Positions 4,327 through 20,302 of a DNA stretch of 53,933 nucleotides are shown here, in pieces. Source of the stretch: Rickettsiales bacterium (GTDB lineage: Bacteria; Pseudomonadota; Alphaproteobacteria; Rickettsiales; UBA8987); assembly GCA_033762595.1 (NCBI GenBank), contig JANRLM010000031.1, positions 1 to 53,933 on the forward strand, written 5' to 3'. The translations under genes and the position numbers were made by a program. Each line of letters starts with the position of its first letter. Position 1 is the first letter of the stretch. The notes beneath the pieces were generated by a model. It ran no database searches. It saw only the letters and a program-made list of their open reading frames with translations, and had not been told where the DNA came from.

Positions 4327-6123
4327 ATGGAATCAACTGCAAGATTGCTACTAGCCCTGTTTCTCTCAATGTCAGCGATATATTTGTGGAATCACTATTA
4401 TGTAAATCCCAAAATAGAAAAAGCTGAAATTGCCCTCAAACAGAAACAAAAAGAGTTAATTGAACAGGAAAAATTAGATTCGCTTGACATTAATTCAGCG
4501 AATTCATTAGATAGCCTAAGCGGAGATTTTCAAGTATCCGAAGGTTTGGCAATTAAAAAAACATCTAGCAAAATTATCTCTAGAACGAAACTTATTAAAA
4601 ATGATTTTTCTAAAAATTTACGAGTTAAAATTTCAACTAAAGATGTTGAAGGCTCAATAAATCTACAGGGTCTATTGCTAGATGATTTAACCTTAAAAAA
4701 TTATAATGAAACTCTAAAAAATGATTCTGGAAAAGTAGTTTTGCTTTCTCCTAAAAATACTAAAGAATTGTATTTTTTAAGGTCTGGCTGGGTTTCAAAG
4801 GGTAAAGCAAATGTTAAAACGCCTGATGAAAATTCTCTCTGGAAAATTATTTCAAAAAATAAAATCCTCACTGAAAATAATCCCATAGAACTAGCTTGGG
4901 ATAATGGAGAAGGCTTTATTTTTAAGCAAAAAATTTCACTAAATGAAAAATATTTGTTTGAAATTCAGCAATCAGTTTCCAATAATTCTGGGGTTAATGT
5001 TAGTCTCTCGCCATTTGCCTTAAGCAACAGAGCGGTTGAAGAAAGGGAGAATGTTTTTATATCTCACGAAGGTGCTATTGCTTATGCCGAAGACGAAATT
5101 AAGGAAGTAAAATATTCAACGCTCGCTGAAGAAGGCAAGCAGGAATTTAAGAAAACTAAGGGCTGGGCTGGTATTAGTGATAAATATTGGTTAACTTCTA
5201 TCTTGCCTCAAGATAGCTCAAAAGGGCTTTTTGATATTAGGTTTAATCATTATCGCTCAAACCAAAAAGATAGATATCAAGTTGATATCTTAGGTGAAAA
5301 TTTTACCTTAAAAAATGGTGAGGAACTGAACTATAAATTTAACTTTTTTGCAGGTTCAAAAAAACTTAAACTTCTTGAAAAATATTCTAAAGAGCTTGAT
5401 ATAAAACTCTTTGATAGGGCGATAGATTTTGGCATTTACTACATAATTACCAAGCCGATTATGGAGGCTTTGTATTTCTTCAATAAATATTTTAATAATC
5501 TTGGGCTTGCGATAATGGCACTAACAATTTGCGTTCGCTTGCTTCTATTTCCGGTTGCGAATAAGGCTTATAATTCAATGGCTAGAATGCGTAAGCACAT
5601 GCCAGAAATTCAACGCATGAAAGAAAAGTATAAAAAAGATAGTCAAAAACTTGGCGTTGAGATGATGAAATATTATAAGGAGCATAAAATAAACCCTTTA
5701 AGTGGCTGTTTTCCTCTGTTTATACAAATTCCTATTTTCTTCTCACTTTATAAAGTTTTATATGTAACAATTGAAATGCGTCACGCACCTTTTTTTGGTT
5801 GGATAAAAGATTTATCTGAAAAAGACCCAACTAATATTCTGAATTTCTTTGGTTTACTGCCTTATGATGTTCCAGCTTGGCTGCCAGCGATTGGCATTCT
5901 GCCCATTTTATATACGCTAACAATGATTTTACAGCAGAAATTAAACCCACCACCAAGTGATGAAACGCAAAGAATTGTTATGGCTTGGATGCCTTGGATT
6001 TTCTTATTTGTATTTGCAAGTTTTGCTTCTGGGCTTGTGATTTATTGGATTTGGAATAATATTCTTTCCATCTTACAGCAATGGATTATTACCAAAAGAG
6101 TTGAAGAAGATAAAAAGGCTTAA
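4327..6123 (+). CDS. yidC: Membrane protein insertase YidC
   Basis: This inner-membrane insertase folds and inserts membrane proteins alone or with SecYEG. The product has 598 residues in the usual Gram-negative order. An N-terminal membrane anchor (residues about 5-25) comes first, then a large periplasmic domain to about residue 370. The conserved five-helix core follows, with the essential groove arginine in ICVRLLLFP. The cytoplasmic hairpin MRKHMPEIQRMKEKYKKD, the segment PLSGCFPLFIQIPIFFSLYK and a basic C-terminus complete it. The ATG at 4327 begins with the expected anchor; the frame is open further upstream, but only through the end of yidD. Confidence 0.96.
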   Translation: MESTARLLLALFLSMSAIYLWNHYYVNPKIEKAEIALKQKQKELIEQEKLDSLDINSANSLDSLSGDFQVSEGLAIKKTSSKIISRTKLIKNDFSKNLRVKISTKDVEGSINLQGLLLDDLTLKNYNETLKNDSGKVVLLSPKNTKELYFLRSGWVSKGKANVKTPDENSLWKIISKNKILTENNPIELAWDNGEGFIFKQKISLNEKYLFEIQQSVSNNSGVNVSLSPFALSNRAVEERENVFISHEGAIAYAEDEIKEVKYSTLAEEGKQEFKKTKGWAGISDKYWLTSILPQDSSKGLFDIRFNHYRSNQKDRYQVDILGENFTLKNGEELNYKFNFFAGSKKLKLLEKYSKELDIKLFDRAIDFGIYYIITKPIMEALYFFNKYFNNLGLAIMALTICVRLLLFPVANKAYNSMARMRKHMPEIQRMKEKYKKDSQKLGVEMMKYYKEHKINPLSGCFPLFIQIPIFFSLYKVLYVTIEMRHAPFFGWIKDLSEKDPTNILNFFGLLPYDVPAWLPAIGILPILYTLTMILQQKLNPPPSDETQRIVMAWMPWIFLFVFASFASGLVIYWIWNNILSILQQWIITKRVEEDKKA

Positions 6124-13747: not shown

Positions 13748-15781
13748 ATGAAAAATAATCCATTAATGCAAATTCCTTTTGAGAATAATGGTGTGCCACC
13801 TTTTGATAAAATTAAGGCGGAGCATTTTTTGCCAGCTCTTAATGAAGCAATGAAAATTGGCAAAGCGGAGATTGAAGAAATCAAAAAAATTCCTAATCCA
13901 AATTTTGAAAATGTAATTGAAGCAATGGAAAAGTCAGGTGAGTTGCTCAATTATGTTTCCTCAGTTTTTTATCATTATGATAGTGCGGTTAATAATGATG
14001 AAATTCAAAAAATTGCTCTGGAGTTCAAAACAAATTTAACAAAACACTATAGCGATATTTCTCTGGATTCCCTGCTTTTTAAGCAAATTAAAGCGGTTTA
14101 TGATAAGAAAAATGAATATAATTTAAGAGAAGAAGAAGAAATTTTGCTTGATGATTCTTACAAATCTTTTGTTAGAAATGGGGCGTTACTAAATGATAAT
14201 GATAAGGAAATCCTCAGAAAAATTGATGAAAACCTTGCGGAGCTAACTAACAAATTTGGTGAAAATTTATTAGCTGAAACTAATAAGTTTAAGCTATTTA
14301 TTAATGATGAATCTGAGCTTACAGGCCTGCCAGAAGGTGCAAAAACTCAAGCAAAAGAGGCCGCTGATGAAGAAGAAAATGCGGAAGGAAAATATCTTTT
14401 TACCCTTCACGCACCAAGTGTTGTGCCAGTTTTAACCTATGCTGAAAATCGTTCTTTACGAGAAAAAATCTGGCGAGCTTTTTCTACAAGGTGTAAATCA
14501 GGTGAGTTTGATAATAAGCCTGTATTGCTTGAAATTGTTAGGCTTCGCGATAAGAGGGCAAAACTTTTAGGCTATAAAAATCACGCAGAATATGTTTTGG
14601 AAGAAAGAATGGCAAAAAATTCTGCAAATGTCATTTCAATGATAGAAAATTACAAAAATATTGTTAGGAAGCCTGCCGAAAAAGAACTTGCAGAGCTTAA
14701 AGAATTCGCAAAATTAAAATATAATGCTGATGAGATAAAACCTTGGGATATCGGCTTTTACGCTGAAAAACTTAAAGCAGAAAAATATGGTTTTAATGGC
14801 GAAATGCTAAGGCCATATTTTCAATTTGAAAAGGTTAGAAATGGTGCTTTTGAAGTCGCTTCAAAACTTTATAATTTAGAAATTTCTCAAGCAAAAAATT
14901 ATCCAATATACAATGATGATGTTGAGGTTTTTGAGGTAAAAGACGCTGAAACTAAGGATTTAATAGGAATTATTTACACTGATTACTTCCCTCGTAAAAC
15001 CAAGCGTGGCGGTGCTTGGATGGATAATTATATAACGCAAGGCAGGCTTGAAAACGGCAAAAGAAAGCCACCAGTGATTGGTAATCACGGCAATTTCACC
15101 AAGCCTACAAAAGATAAGCCTTCACTGCTAACAATGGAAGAGGTACTTACGCTTTTTCACGAGTTCGGACACGGGCTTCACGGGTTGCTTTCAAACACGA
15201 AATATAAATCACAAGCTGGAACTTCTGTTAAGTGGGATTTTGTTGAGCTTCCCTCGCAAATTATGGAAAACTGGGTTAAAGAAAAGGAAGTGTTGGATTT
15301 ATTTGCAAGGCATTATGAAAGCGGTGAGCTAATTCCTGTGGATTTAGTGCAGAAAATGAAAGATGCTGATAATTTTAGGGCAGCAAGTGCATTTTTAAGG
15401 CAGATGCAACTCTCTCAATTAGATATGGCTTGGCATATGGTATCGCCTGAAAATATTTCTGATGTAGAAAAATTTGAATATGAAACTTGTAAAGATTTTT
15501 ATTTACTAAATCCTGAAGGCTCGCTTAATTCAACCAATTTTTCCCATATTTTTGATGGTGGATATTCCGCAGGATATTATAGTTACAAATGGGCGGAAAT
15601 ACTAGATGCTGATGCGTTTGAAGCCTTCAAAGAAAATGGCTTATTTAACAAAGAAATCGCAAAAAAATTTAGGCAATTACTTGCAAGTGGTGGCTCAAAA
15701 GACCCAGAAAAATTATACATATTATTCAGGGGTAAAAAGCCAGACCCGAACGCTTTACTAAGAAGGGAAGGGTTGGTTTAG
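13748..15781 (+). CDS. M3 family metallopeptidase (peptidyl-dipeptidase Dcp / oligopeptidase A type)
   Basis: This cytosolic zinc peptidase degrades short peptides, probably products of larger proteases. It has 677 residues, close to Dcp (about 680). The zinc site is HEFGHGLHGLLS at about residues 472-483, where the two His and the Glu after the first His follow the HExxH rule. Downstream DFVELPSQIMENW supplies the third ligand region and resembles Dcp. The C-terminal segment FDGGYSAGYYSYKWAEILDADAF is typical of the family. Dcp and oligopeptidase A cannot be separated with certainty by eye. Its end overlaps the glpK end by 24 nt, tail to tail. Confidence 0.9.
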   Translation: MKNNPLMQIPFENNGVPPFDKIKAEHFLPALNEAMKIGKAEIEEIKKIPNPNFENVIEAMEKSGELLNYVSSVFYHYDSAVNNDEIQKIALEFKTNLTKHYSDISLDSLLFKQIKAVYDKKNEYNLREEEEILLDDSYKSFVRNGALLNDNDKEILRKIDENLAELTNKFGENLLAETNKFKLFINDESELTGLPEGAKTQAKEAADEEENAEGKYLFTLHAPSVVPVLTYAENRSLREKIWRAFSTRCKSGEFDNKPVLLEIVRLRDKRAKLLGYKNHAEYVLEERMAKNSANVISMIENYKNIVRKPAEKELAELKEFAKLKYNADEIKPWDIGFYAEKLKAEKYGFNGEMLRPYFQFEKVRNGAFEVASKLYNLEISQAKNYPIYNDDVEVFEVKDAETKDLIGIIYTDYFPRKTKRGGAWMDNYITQGRLENGKRKPPVIGNHGNFTKPTKDKPSLLTMEEVLTLFHEFGHGLHGLLSNTKYKSQAGTSVKWDFVELPSQIMENWVKEKEVLDLFARHYESGELIPVDLVQKMKDADNFRAASAFLRQMQLSQLDMAWHMVSPENISDVEKFEYETCKDFYLLNPEGSLNSTNFSHIFDGGYSAGYYSYKWAEILDADAFEAFKENGLFNKEIAKKFRQLLASGGSKDPEKLYILFRGKKPDPNALLRREGLV

Positions 15782-17110
15782 CCTAGCTAGTTTTGCGATG
15801 CCAAGTGCGGTGAGTTCCTTTTCTTTGCTGATTTTAATTTTGTGTTGCAGGTAAGATTTTTGCATCTGCATTAAGATTTTACTTGCGGAAACTCCGCCAT
15901 CAATTTTTATTTCATTTATTTTAATTTTTGTATCTTTCTCAACCAAATTAATCATATTTTTTACTTGTAAACATAGTGCTTCATAGGCAGCAAAGGCTAC
16001 ATCAGCCCTCGTATTTGCAAGGCTAATTCCTGAAATTGAAGCTCTTTTATGCATATCCCAACTTGGGCTTGCCTCTCCAGAAAAACAATTTTCAAATTTA
16101 ATACCAGAAGAATTTTTTACAGAAGAAACCAATTTATCAAGCTCTTTCGGGTTTTCTGCGATGGCTAGATTTTTTACCAACCAATTAATCATTGAGGCAC
16201 AATCATAAATACAGCCTTCTAAAGCGTAAGTAATTTTATTATCAATCCCCCAGCCGATAGTAGTTAAAAAACCATTTTTAGAGTGAATTATTTTTGAGCC
16301 AATATTTGCTAACAAAAAACAACCAGTGCCGTAAGTGATTTTTGTATTGCCAGCTTTCAAACAATTATGGCCATATAAAGAGGCTTGCTGATCCCCTAAA
16401 ATAGCAGTAATTGGTATTTCTGAGCCAAAAAATTTCTTGTCTATATTGCCAAAATGATGGGAGGAATTTTTAACCTCTGGTAGAATTTCTTTTGGAATGG
16501 CAAAAATTTTTAGCAATTCACTATCCCATTCAAGGGTTTTGATATTGAATAAAAGCGTTCTTGAGGCATTGGAATAGTCAGTAAAGTGAGATTTTCCATT
16601 AGTTAACTTCCATAAAAGCCAACTATCAACTGTTCCGAATAAAATATTTTTTGTCTTAGGTTTTAGCTTTTGTAAAAGCCAATTTATTTTTGTAGCAGAA
16701 AAATAAGGCTCAATTTTTAGACCTGTTTTTTCATTTATAATTTTAGAAAAACCTTTATTTACAAGAGTATTACAAAGTTTTTCAGTTCGTCTATCTTGCC
16801 AAACTATCGCATTATAGATAGGTTTTTGGGTGTATTTATCCCAAATTATTGTGGTTTCTCGTTGGTTGGTAATTCCAATTATTGAGATATCTTGTGCTGA
16901 TAAATTTTCTTTATTCAAAACATCTTTAATGGCTTTAATGGTGTTTTGGAAGATTTCATCTGCGTTTTGTTCAACTAGATTTTCATCAGGGTAAATTTGC
17001 GTTATAGGATATTGTGAGTAAGAAATTTTTTGATTTTTTGAATTAAATAATATTGCTCGCAAGCTAGAAGTTCCGATATCTAAAGCAATTACATAATTTT
17101 CTTTTTTCAT
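15758..17110 (-). CDS. glpK: Glycerol kinase, short C-terminus
   Basis: This FGGY-family kinase phosphorylates glycerol to glycerol 3-phosphate. Motifs are ALDIGTSSLRAI (phosphate loop), ITNQRETTIIWD with the glycerol-binding Arg-Glu pair, YFSATKINWLL with the substrate Tyr, and ILGDQQASLYGH with the catalytic Asp. The second ATPase half is marked by KITYGTGCFLL and KIDGGVSASKILMQ. The product is 450 residues; the family is near 500, and it stops soon after the TALGIAKLA segment, so about 50 C-terminal residues are missing. It is the last gene of the tight fabF-MNIO-DUF2063-glpK run (6-nt gap). Its end overlaps the M3 peptidase gene. Confidence 0.85.
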   Translation of the reverse strand: MKKENYVIALDIGTSSLRAILFNSKNQKISYSQYPITQIYPDENLVEQNADEIFQNTIKAIKDVLNKENLSAQDISIIGITNQRETTIIWDKYTQKPIYNAIVWQDRRTEKLCNTLVNKGFSKIINEKTGLKIEPYFSATKINWLLQKLKPKTKNILFGTVDSWLLWKLTNGKSHFTDYSNASRTLLFNIKTLEWDSELLKIFAIPKEILPEVKNSSHHFGNIDKKFFGSEIPITAILGDQQASLYGHNCLKAGNTKITYGTGCFLLANIGSKIIHSKNGFLTTIGWGIDNKITYALEGCIYDCASMINWLVKNLAIAENPKELDKLVSSVKNSSGIKFENCFSGEASPSWDMHKRASISGISLANTRADVAFAAYEALCLQVKNMINLVEKDTKIKINEIKIDGGVSASKILMQMQKSYLQHKIKISKEKELTALGIAKLARLNQPFPS

Positions 17111-17116
17111 AAAATA

Positions 17117-17884
17117 TCAATTGTTTTTGAAAAAGCCATTTTGGCAAAATTTTATAAAGTAATCTTGGATTTTTTTTGCTAAAATTTCTTCTTCAAAATT
17201 AAATTTTTTTCTAAGTAAATCTATCGCTTGATTTAGATCTTCTGATTTTTGCAAAAATTTTAGAAAATAAAACTCGTCTTTTGTAAGATTATGGCGTTTT
17301 ACCTCATTATTATCACGCACAATAAAAATATATGAAGTAATTTTTTTAACCTCTGATTGATTATTTTTCCTAAATTCACTCAAATAATTTTCAACATTAT
17401 AAATATATTTTTTTATAGAATGTGCAGTTCTTAAAGAAAACTTATTTTCTAAAAATGCGTCATCTGAAAATTTTGCTAAATCTTGAAGTGTAAGGGCAGG
17501 GCTATCTTCAGCTTGAAAAACCTTTATAATTTCTGATTCTAAATCTGCAATTTCTGAAACAATTTTATCAGGGTAGTTTTTCTTAATAAAATTTGCAAAT
17601 TTGACTGGGTAAAAATCCAAATTATAAGATTTTGAGGGCGTTTTTCTTATATAAGAATTAACTAATTGGTGAAAATCGGATAATTTATTTTGCTGAACAA
17701 AATAATTTTCTGTTGTTGGATAATCATCAATAATTGCTTTGCTAAGCCTTTCTTTGTAGCCGTAAATATAAATATCAAGATGTTTTGACGCTTGATTTGA
17801 GCTGCTTTTAAGGTTTTTGGTTATCAAATCTTTATCATTATTGATAACTGCCTCAACCAAATTTTTTAGAATTTTTTTATTCAT
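17117..17884 (-). CDS. DUF2063 protein, HvfC/BufC-like partner of an MNIO enzyme
   Basis: The 255-residue product matches the DUF2063 (HvfC/BufC) pattern. An N-terminal helical domain has the motif HLDIYIYGYKERLSKAIIDDYPTT in context, a form of the family's Y-Y-R-L..L-DYP signature, followed by a C-terminal winged-helix-like half. Family members bind the leader or core peptide for the adjacent DUF692 iron oxidase and work with it to modify cysteines. It begins 10 nt after the MNIO gene, which supports that pairing. No membrane segment or signal peptide is seen. The exact substrate cannot be named, because no precursor gene is visible here. Confidence 0.72.
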   Translation of the reverse strand: MNKKILKNLVEAVINNDKDLITKNLKSSSNQASKHLDIYIYGYKERLSKAIIDDYPTTENYFVQQNKLSDFHQLVNSYIRKTPSKSYNLDFYPVKFANFIKKNYPDKIVSEIADLESEIIKVFQAEDSPALTLQDLAKFSDDAFLENKFSLRTAHSIKKYIYNVENYLSEFRKNNQSEVKKITSYIFIVRDNNEVKRHNLTKDEFYFLKFLQKSEDLNQAIDLLRKKFNFEEEILAKKIQDYFIKFCQNGFFKNN

Positions 17885-17894
17885 ATTTTTTTAA

Positions 17895-18713
17895 TCAAAG
17901 GCAAAGTTTTTTGGCTTTTAATAATTCACTTTCTAAAACCTCAAACAAAGGAATGTTGTTATCCCACTCTATCATTGTTGAAATTCTGCCCTTTTGATGG
18001 GTGGCGTATTGATATAAATCCCAAACTTTATCAATCACAAAATTATCGTGAGTATCAATAATCACATCACCTTTATTTGTGTGTCCAGCTAGGTGAATTT
18101 GAACAATTCTCTCAGCGGGAATAAAATCTATATATTTTTTTGCATCAAATTTATGATTAAAACTGCTAACGAAAACATTATTCACATCAAGCAATAAGCC
18201 ACAATCTGCTTTTTCTGCAAGTTCTGCTAAAAATTGATGCTCACTCATTGTTGAATTTTCAAACTCAATATAACTTGAAGGGTTTTCAAGAATTATATTT
18301 CGCTCAAGATAATCTTGCACAATTTTAATTCGCTCAGCAATATGCGATAACATCTGCTTATTATAAGGGATTGGGAGTAAATCGTGGGTGTTAATATTAT
18401 TAAAACCAGTATAGCATAAATGATCTGAAATCCATTCGGGGTTGATTTTTTCAGCGAGGTTTTTTACTTTTTTTAGATATTCAAAATTGATTTTATCAAA
18501 GCCACCTATAGAAAGAGAAACTCCGTGCATTACAAGCGGATACAACTCCCTAATGTCCTGTAGAAATTCAATATAACCTGAATGCGAATCGATATAATTT
18601 TCAGTTATAATTTCAAACCAATCAATTTTAGGCTTGTTTTGCAAGATGTAATCGTAGTGGCTAGCCCTTAAACCAAGCCCAAAACCTAGAAATTTATAAC
18701 CAAATTTATTCAC
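17895..18713 (-). CDS. DUF692 multinuclear iron oxidase (MNIO, UPF0276, BufB-like)
   Basis: The 272-residue TIM-barrel protein belongs to UPF0276/DUF692. Characterised members use two or three iron ions to oxidise cysteine or nearby residues in small peptides, as in the copper-binding bufferins. Visible family motifs are FGLGLRASHYD, DWFEIITENYID, LVMHGVSLSIGG, WISDHLCYTG, NIILENPSSYIEF, LLLDVNNVFVSSFNH and QIHLAGHTNKGD, ending near MIEWDNNIP. These supply the His/Asp/Glu ligands of the iron site. The start is GTG at 18713, 5 nt after the fabF stop; no in-frame ATG is upstream. It is followed by its usual partner DUF2063. No precursor peptide gene lies in this run. Confidence 0.85.
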   Translation of the reverse strand: MNKFGYKFLGFGLGLRASHYDYILQNKPKIDWFEIITENYIDSHSGYIEFLQDIRELYPLVMHGVSLSIGGFDKINFEYLKKVKNLAEKINPEWISDHLCYTGFNNINTHDLLPIPYNKQMLSHIAERIKIVQDYLERNIILENPSSYIEFENSTMSEHQFLAELAEKADCGLLLDVNNVFVSSFNHKFDAKKYIDFIPAERIVQIHLAGHTNKGDVIIDTHDNFVIDKVWDLYQYATHQKGRISTMIEWDNNIPLFEVLESELLKAKKLCL

Positions 18714-18718
18714 ACATA

Positions 18719-19981
18719 TTATGAAAATTTTTTCATCACTAAACTTACATTTGTGCCACCAAAACCGAATGAATTGCTAACCACGCAATTAACTTTTCGC
18801 TCTTTAGCTTTATGTGGAACTAAATCAACGCCAGCCGTTGCATCTTCAGGGTTTTCAAGGTTTAGAGTAGGCGGGCAAATTTGATCCCTCATCGCAAGGA
18901 TTGAGAAAATTGCCTCTACTGAGCCAGCAGCACCAAGTAAATGCCCAATCGCCGATTTAGTTGAAGACATTGAAACATTGCTGATATGAGATCCGAGAAG
19001 CCTTTTAACAGCACCAAATTCAATTAAATCACCCATAGGTGTTGATGTGCCGTGAGCGTTGATATAGTCAATCTCCTCAGGATTGATTTTTGCACTGCGA
19101 ACTGCATTTTCCATCGCATCAAAAGCACCCCTGCCTTCTGGGTGTGGTGAAGTGATGTGATATGCATCGCCGGATAAGCCATATCCAATCACTTCTGCGT
19201 AAATTTTTGCACCTCTTTTTTTCGCATGTTCTAATTCTTCAAGAACAACAATTCCAGCACCTTCACCCATTACAAAGCCGTCTCTGCCTTTATCCCATGG
19301 CCTTGAGGCTTTTTCTGGGGTTTCATTGTAAGAAGTTGATAACGCCCTTGCAGCTGAAAATCCCGCTATACCAACAGGGCAGATTGTAGCTTCAGATGAG
19401 CCAGCTATCATAACTTCGGCATCACCATACGCAATTAACCTTGCTGCATCACCGATTGCGTGGCCGCCTGTTGAGCAAGCCGTTACAACTGAGTGATTTG
19501 GCCCTCTAAAGCCGTATTTCATTGATACATGGCCAGAGGTTAAATTAATTAATGTTGATGGAATGAAAAATGGGCTTAGCCTTTTCCAGCTTGATTCCTT
19601 AACAATCTGCACGCCCCTTTCAATTTCAGGCAAACCACCAATGCCAGAGCCAATCATAACGCCAGTTCTTTTTTGAGAATATTCATCTTCAGGCTTCCAA
19701 TTTGCATCTTCGATAGCTTGAATAGCAGCGGAAATTCCATAGATTATGAAATCATCCATCATTTTTTGATCTTTTTTAGAAACCCATTTTTCAGCAGAAA
19801 ATTCTCCTTCATTTTCACCAAGCGGAACTTCAGCGGCAACTTGGCACGGCATTGAAGTTGCATCAAATCTAGTGATTTTTTTTAGTGCAGATTTTCCAGC
19901 GATAAGCGATTTCCAAGTTTCTTCAACACCACAAGCAAGTGGAGTAACCATTCCAAGACCAGTAACAACAACTCTTCTCAT
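18719..19981 (-). CDS. fabF: 3-oxoacyl-[ACP] synthase II
   Basis: This condensing enzyme elongates acyl-ACP in type II fatty acid synthesis. The 420-residue product starts RRVVVTGLGMVTPL and has the full catalytic set. The nucleophilic Cys is in VVTACSTGGHAIGDA, the first His in NAHGTSTPMGD and the second in KSAIGHLLGAAGSVEA, with the closing FGFGGTNVSLV. It lies downstream of acpP on the same strand, separated by a terminator-like hairpin, and is followed with minimal gaps by the MNIO/DUF2063/glpK genes. Confidence 0.96.
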   Translation of the reverse strand: MRRVVVTGLGMVTPLACGVEETWKSLIAGKSALKKITRFDATSMPCQVAAEVPLGENEGEFSAEKWVSKKDQKMMDDFIIYGISAAIQAIEDANWKPEDEYSQKRTGVMIGSGIGGLPEIERGVQIVKESSWKRLSPFFIPSTLINLTSGHVSMKYGFRGPNHSVVTACSTGGHAIGDAARLIAYGDAEVMIAGSSEATICPVGIAGFSAARALSTSYNETPEKASRPWDKGRDGFVMGEGAGIVVLEELEHAKKRGAKIYAEVIGYGLSGDAYHITSPHPEGRGAFDAMENAVRSAKINPEEIDYINAHGTSTPMGDLIEFGAVKRLLGSHISNVSMSSTKSAIGHLLGAAGSVEAIFSILAMRDQICPPTLNLENPEDATAGVDLVPHKAKERKVNCVVSNSFGFGGTNVSLVMKKFS

Positions 19982-20010
19982 AAAAAATAATATTAGTTAA
20001 TAATCAAAAA

Positions 20011-20037
20011 AAAACCCCGCATTTTAAGCGAGGTTTT
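20011..20037 (-). terminator. Terminator-like hairpin between acpP and fabF
   Basis: On the minus strand the stem AAAACCTCGC/GCGGGGTTTT (one G-T pair, 7-nt loop) is followed by a run of T. It lies just after the acpP stop and before fabF. It probably limits readthrough, so that the carrier protein is made in excess of the synthase and downstream genes. Confidence 0.7.
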
Positions 20038-20065
20038 TCTAAAATATATTCATCAAAAAGACAAA

Positions 20066-20302
20066 TTATTTTGTAGCCTGTTCAATGAAGCTAACAGCGT
20101 CATTAACGGTTGCGATTTTTTCAGCAGCTTCATCAGGAATTTCAATATTAAATTCTTCTTCAAAAGCCATAACTAACTCAACTTGATCAAGGCTATCAGC
20201 ACCTAAATCATCAACGAATGAAGAAGTATCTGTAACTTTCTCTTCATTAACATCTAAGTGTTCAGCAACAATCTTGATTACTTTAGCTCTAATATCGCTC
20301 AT
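20066..20302 (-). CDS. acpP: Acyl carrier protein
   Basis: This 78-residue acidic carrier holds growing fatty acyl chains on a 4'-phosphopantetheine arm. The attachment Ser is in [18 protein letters not shown], and the overall pattern from [16 protein letters not shown] to the end fits the family. A clear AGGAG lies 7 nt before the ATG, one of the better ribosome-binding sites in the window. It is preceded by a strong promoter candidate and followed by a terminator, then fabF. Confidence 0.97.

Follow-up and report, generated by a model that had tools for sequence, protein, structure and literature searches.

The analysed window, a stretch of 53,933 nucleotides from a Rickettsiales bacterium (contig JANRLM010000031.1 of assembly GCA_033762595.1, the genome referred to below as G000), carries on its minus strand, according to open reading frame (ORF) calls, the gene order acpP, fabF, MNIO/DUF692, DUF2063 and glpK. 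The acpP gene (20066-20302) precedes fabF (18719-19981), which encodes ketoacyl-ACP synthase II (TIGR03150, 629 bits). The MNIO gene (bufB, 17895-18713) has a GTG start and encodes a DUF692 protein of 272 aa assigned here as a bufferin maturase, and the DUF2063 gene (bufC, 17117-17884) encodes a partner protein of 255 aa with a predicted C-terminal RRE-like domain, while glpK (15758-17110; NF000756, 548 bits) encodes a C-terminally short glycerol kinase. Both fabF and glpK were regarded as neighbours and not judged to be part of the system. The ORF coordinates bear out the tight packing described in the initial annotation, with gaps of 5, 10 and 6 nt from fabF through the MNIO and DUF2063 genes to glpK. 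A hairpin of 13 pairs followed by a T run, terminator-like by consensus match only, lies on the same strand between acpP and fabF (20008-20040), and a terminator scan found no hairpin as strong as this one from fabF to the start of glpK, a pattern that, together with the gene spacing, makes it likely that fabF, bufB, bufC and glpK form one transcript. No small Cys-rich ORF with a convincing signal peptide is found between or near these four genes, and none stands out in the window, in agreement with the earlier statement that the pair has no precursor gene nearby. At the end of the gene string, GlpK has 450 aa and covers only positions 2-452 of the 502 of the glycerol kinase profile, and its gene end overlaps a convergent M3-type peptidase gene (13748-15781, plus strand); the enzyme may have a shortened C-terminus or be decaying.

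The MNIO, the only one encoded in the genome, matched the Pfam family PF05114 with 353 bits and passed the cut-off of the NCBIfam equivalog model NF050167 (MNIO_BufB; 358 bits, cut-off 310), whereas it stayed under the cut-offs of the NCBIfam models for HvfB, ApyH, MbnB and ChrH. In an alignment of 27 sequences, comprising the window MNIO and 26 relatives, residues H63, H98, E143, D176, N178, N179, H207, D220, H222, E249 and D251 are invariant or differ in a single row, and the solved homologue 3BWW contains the same metal-site motifs. With these residues conserved and the motifs shared, the sequence gives no sign that BufB has been inactivated; loss of the iron ligands, which had been put forward as what would make the enzyme inactive, was not seen in the alignment. 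The HvfABC/oxazolin system of Haemophilus influenzae has a related MNIO and partner with the same iron-site motifs, and HvfB cannot do without the N, D and H residues at a predicted third iron site (PMC13419390). Mapping by motif indicates that equivalents of this third site are present in the window MNIO. Unlike HvfB, however, this protein scored 263 bits against the HvfB model NF003818, below its cut-off of 360, and no EGKCG-type precursor was seen. As for descent, the resolution of the BufB tree within the G000 clade is too weak to separate vertical descent from transfer. Within the same family, genomes G002 and G004 (L061, L062) have a BufB lineage well separated from the one found in G000 and its relative G001, which suggests replacement or transfer of bufB.

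The DUF2063 protein, likewise encoded by a single gene in the genome, passed the cut-off of PF09836 (31 bits, cut-off 27.2). In structure searches, its AlphaFold model (mean pLDDT 92.9) matched TglI (8hci, 8hi7) and NGO1945 (3dee) at E-values of about 2e-5, and weaker matches (E above 0.6) were to leader-peptide-binding domains from other RiPP systems. As modelled, the protein is a normal BufC/TglI/NGO1945-type partner with an RRE-like domain. Moreover, six relatives (L065, L069, L070, L073, L080 and L084) naturally have BufB and BufC fused into a single chain of 515-581 aa, which supports a joint action of both proteins. The model of such a fusion (mean pLDDT 83.5) matched 3BWW and TglH. The TglH-TglI system of Pseudomonas syringae (8hci, 8hi7) thus shares the fold of both the MNIO domain and the partner, but identity in the structural alignment is about 11-22% and its precursor is of another type.

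We then considered whether the position of the pair behind fabF carries functional meaning, as the initial annotation had pointed to an unusual coupling to fatty acid synthesis and had proposed comparing the DUF692-DUF2063-fabF order in relatives. The short gaps of the gene string and its probable shared transcript could be taken to mean that MNIO and DUF2063 have taken on a lipid- or glycerol-linked function, or that they modify a fatty acid synthesis protein, for example ACP. Against this, not one of the 27 other bufB-bearing relatives has fabF next to bufB, neither FabF nor AcpP was matched within 6 kb of bufB in any of 80 named genome loci, where the flank extends that far, and the genes that follow fabF vary from relative to relative. 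In addition, a standard BufA1 precursor is present in the genome, as described below. We therefore rejected the link to fatty acid synthesis, since the adjacency was seen in this genome only, and hold a recruitment of this kind to be very improbable. Gene-order comparison instead indicates that fabF-bufBC-glpK is a local arrangement of this genome, one that provides no evidence of function, and that bufBC was placed behind fabF by a local, lineage-specific rearrangement. BufC itself was detected together with BufB in 77 of the 80 named loci.

A whole-genome search for DUF2282-like peptides, as had been advised, returned a single gene, located in the same assembly but on a different contig (C75, positions 4739-5050). 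The encoded protein, a textbook BufA1 precursor, has 103 aa and an ATG start behind GAGG, and it matched PF10048 with 88-89 bits (cut-off 22.4). Judged by eye, its N-terminus is Sec-like (MSNKKLIYLSGLLFLASNSSSLAQ), and its core carries four Cys that are conserved in the alignment. The gene adjoins flagellar genes, being divergent from fliO-fliP. As MNIO, DUF2063 and DUF2282 genes occur in a ratio of 1:1:1, the three can be paired one to one. Between the two options originally entertained, a substrate encoded elsewhere in the genome has thus been borne out, and there is no need to invoke a target that is not a dedicated peptide. It had also been argued that a precursor gene cotranscribed or coregulated from elsewhere would turn the pair into an ordinary bufferin-type system; a precursor gene elsewhere is indeed present, while its co-transcription with the pair is, within the limits of the draft assembly, excluded by its placement on a different contig. 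One may ask whether C75 belongs to this organism at all: the draft assembly comprises 124 contigs and has an estimated contamination of 1%, and were the contig foreign, the pair would truly be without a precursor. In the same-family genome G001, however, a bufA1 copy occupies the same fliO-fliP position, with BufA and FliP being 66% and 73% identical to those of G000, and the GC content of C75 (33.4%) agrees with that of the window (33.9%). The shared gene order and matching GC make misbinning of C75 unlikely, and we would give next to no credence to a contaminant origin that leaves the pair without a substrate.

Among 55 relatives, BufB was found in 28 (25 over the cut-off) and BufA1 in 25, and none of the 25 genomes with BufA1 is without a match to BufB (p = 1.2e-12 in a Fisher test that takes no account of kinship). 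In 17 of these 25, bufA1 lies within about 2 kb of bufB, and in the remaining eight (G000, G013, G022, G024, G036, G041, G046 and G052) it lies away from it. Since about 250 kb of a single contig separate the two genes in G036, and the genome of G022 consists of only 6 contigs, separation of bufA1 and bufB is no general assembly artefact. This agrees with a bufferin survey in which the bufABC order is the rule, yet considerable fractions of the precursors are encoded away from MNIO genes (PMC12452194). Variation in the locus was also observed in G001 (L060 5937-8670, L095 and L099), which has three bufA1-type genes, among them the copy at fliO and one linked to bufB, and in which argG directly follows bufB, with no bufC in between.

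In four of the genomes with unlinked bufA1 (G013, G024, G041 and G052), another secreted Cys-rich peptide is encoded just before the MNIO gene. In the relatives with fused BufB-BufC, this position is taken by a secreted peptide with CKG repeats or another Cys-rich sequence (L065 9026-9280, L084 15691-16050, L069 9682-9906 and L073 10500-10811); two of the peptides before MNIO genes are BufA2-like below the cut-off, and the others match no family over the cut-off. Hence BufBC in G000 might also, or even mainly, modify a second, unrecognised Cys-rich secreted peptide encoded elsewhere in the genome, a reading that draws on the BufA2-like CKG-repeat peptides beside the MNIO gene in G013, G024, G029, G052 and other relatives, and on the suggestion that one BufBC may serve several precursors (PMC12452194). 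On the other side, searches of the genome with the BufA2 model (NF050166) and with a CKG-repeat peptide profile (A5) gave no match, which is weak negative evidence with limited controls, as the control genomes were also without a BufA2 match and the A5 profile picks up few relatives other than the rows it was built from. On these family and profile searches, we regard a second substrate as unlikely.

Overall, it is very likely that the pair in the window and the BufA1 on C75 make up a bufferin-1 system with its genes divided between two loci. This assignment is based on the MNIO passing the BufB cut-off and that of no other MNIO type; on the single MNIO, DUF2063 and DUF2282 genes, the latter with leader and four conserved Cys; on the C75 gene order shared with G001; on the presence of BufB in every relative with BufA1, including those with bufA1 at a distance; on the fold of BufC, which resembles that of known MNIO partners and, to a weak degree, that of leader-binding domains; on the natural BufB-BufC fusions; and on the thiooxazoles, signal-peptide recognition and unlinked precursors reported for Buf1 (PMC12452194). 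All three core proteins of bufferin-1 (BufA1-BufB1-BufC1) of Caulobacter vibrioides and its relatives, including the gig operons (PMC12452194), are represented here, namely a DUF2282 precursor with leader and four Cys, a BufB-type MNIO and a DUF2063-RRE partner (PME-type 1). Unlike in those systems, the precursor gene sits at a second locus and bufBC lies inside the fabF-glpK gene string. The departure from the usual bufABC order is a point against the assignment; a single bufA-bufB-bufC operon is usual but not defining, and it is absent from seven other relatives as well. Also in contrast to bufferin-1, neither DoxX nor NrsF was found in the genome, so that the system appears reduced as well as split. 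Contigs C112 and C45 each carry, at one end, a partial copper P-type ATPase match below the cut-off; the two possibly represent one gene cut by the assembly.

In characterised Buf1, the central Cys are modified whereas the outer two form a disulphide, the Cys-derived thiooxazoles bind copper, and recognition seems to involve the signal peptide (PMC12452194). Judging by the gene spacing, bufB and bufC are probably transcribed with fabF and glpK as passengers. By analogy with Buf1, the RRE-like domain of BufC would probably bind the Sec-type leader of BufA1, the product of the separate gene by fliO-fliP. The iron centre of BufB would then oxidise the two central Cys of BufA1, most likely to 5-thiooxazoles, and the modified peptide would be exported to the periplasm, where it would chelate excess copper. 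A more speculative view, which we consider rather improbable, is that this lineage has uncoupled a constitutive maturase, made from the fabF transcript, from a separately regulated precursor with its own promoter by the flagellar genes, such that one BufBC could serve any precursor in trans. Altogether, these results indicate that the lack of a precursor gene next to an MNIO-DUF2063 pair does not in itself imply an exotic substrate, and that DUF2282 and BufA2 should be sought throughout the genome before a new one is claimed. Furthermore, they add a lineage in which BufB would have to act in trans on a BufA1 encoded far away, a situation that the bufferin literature had left open (PMC12452194).
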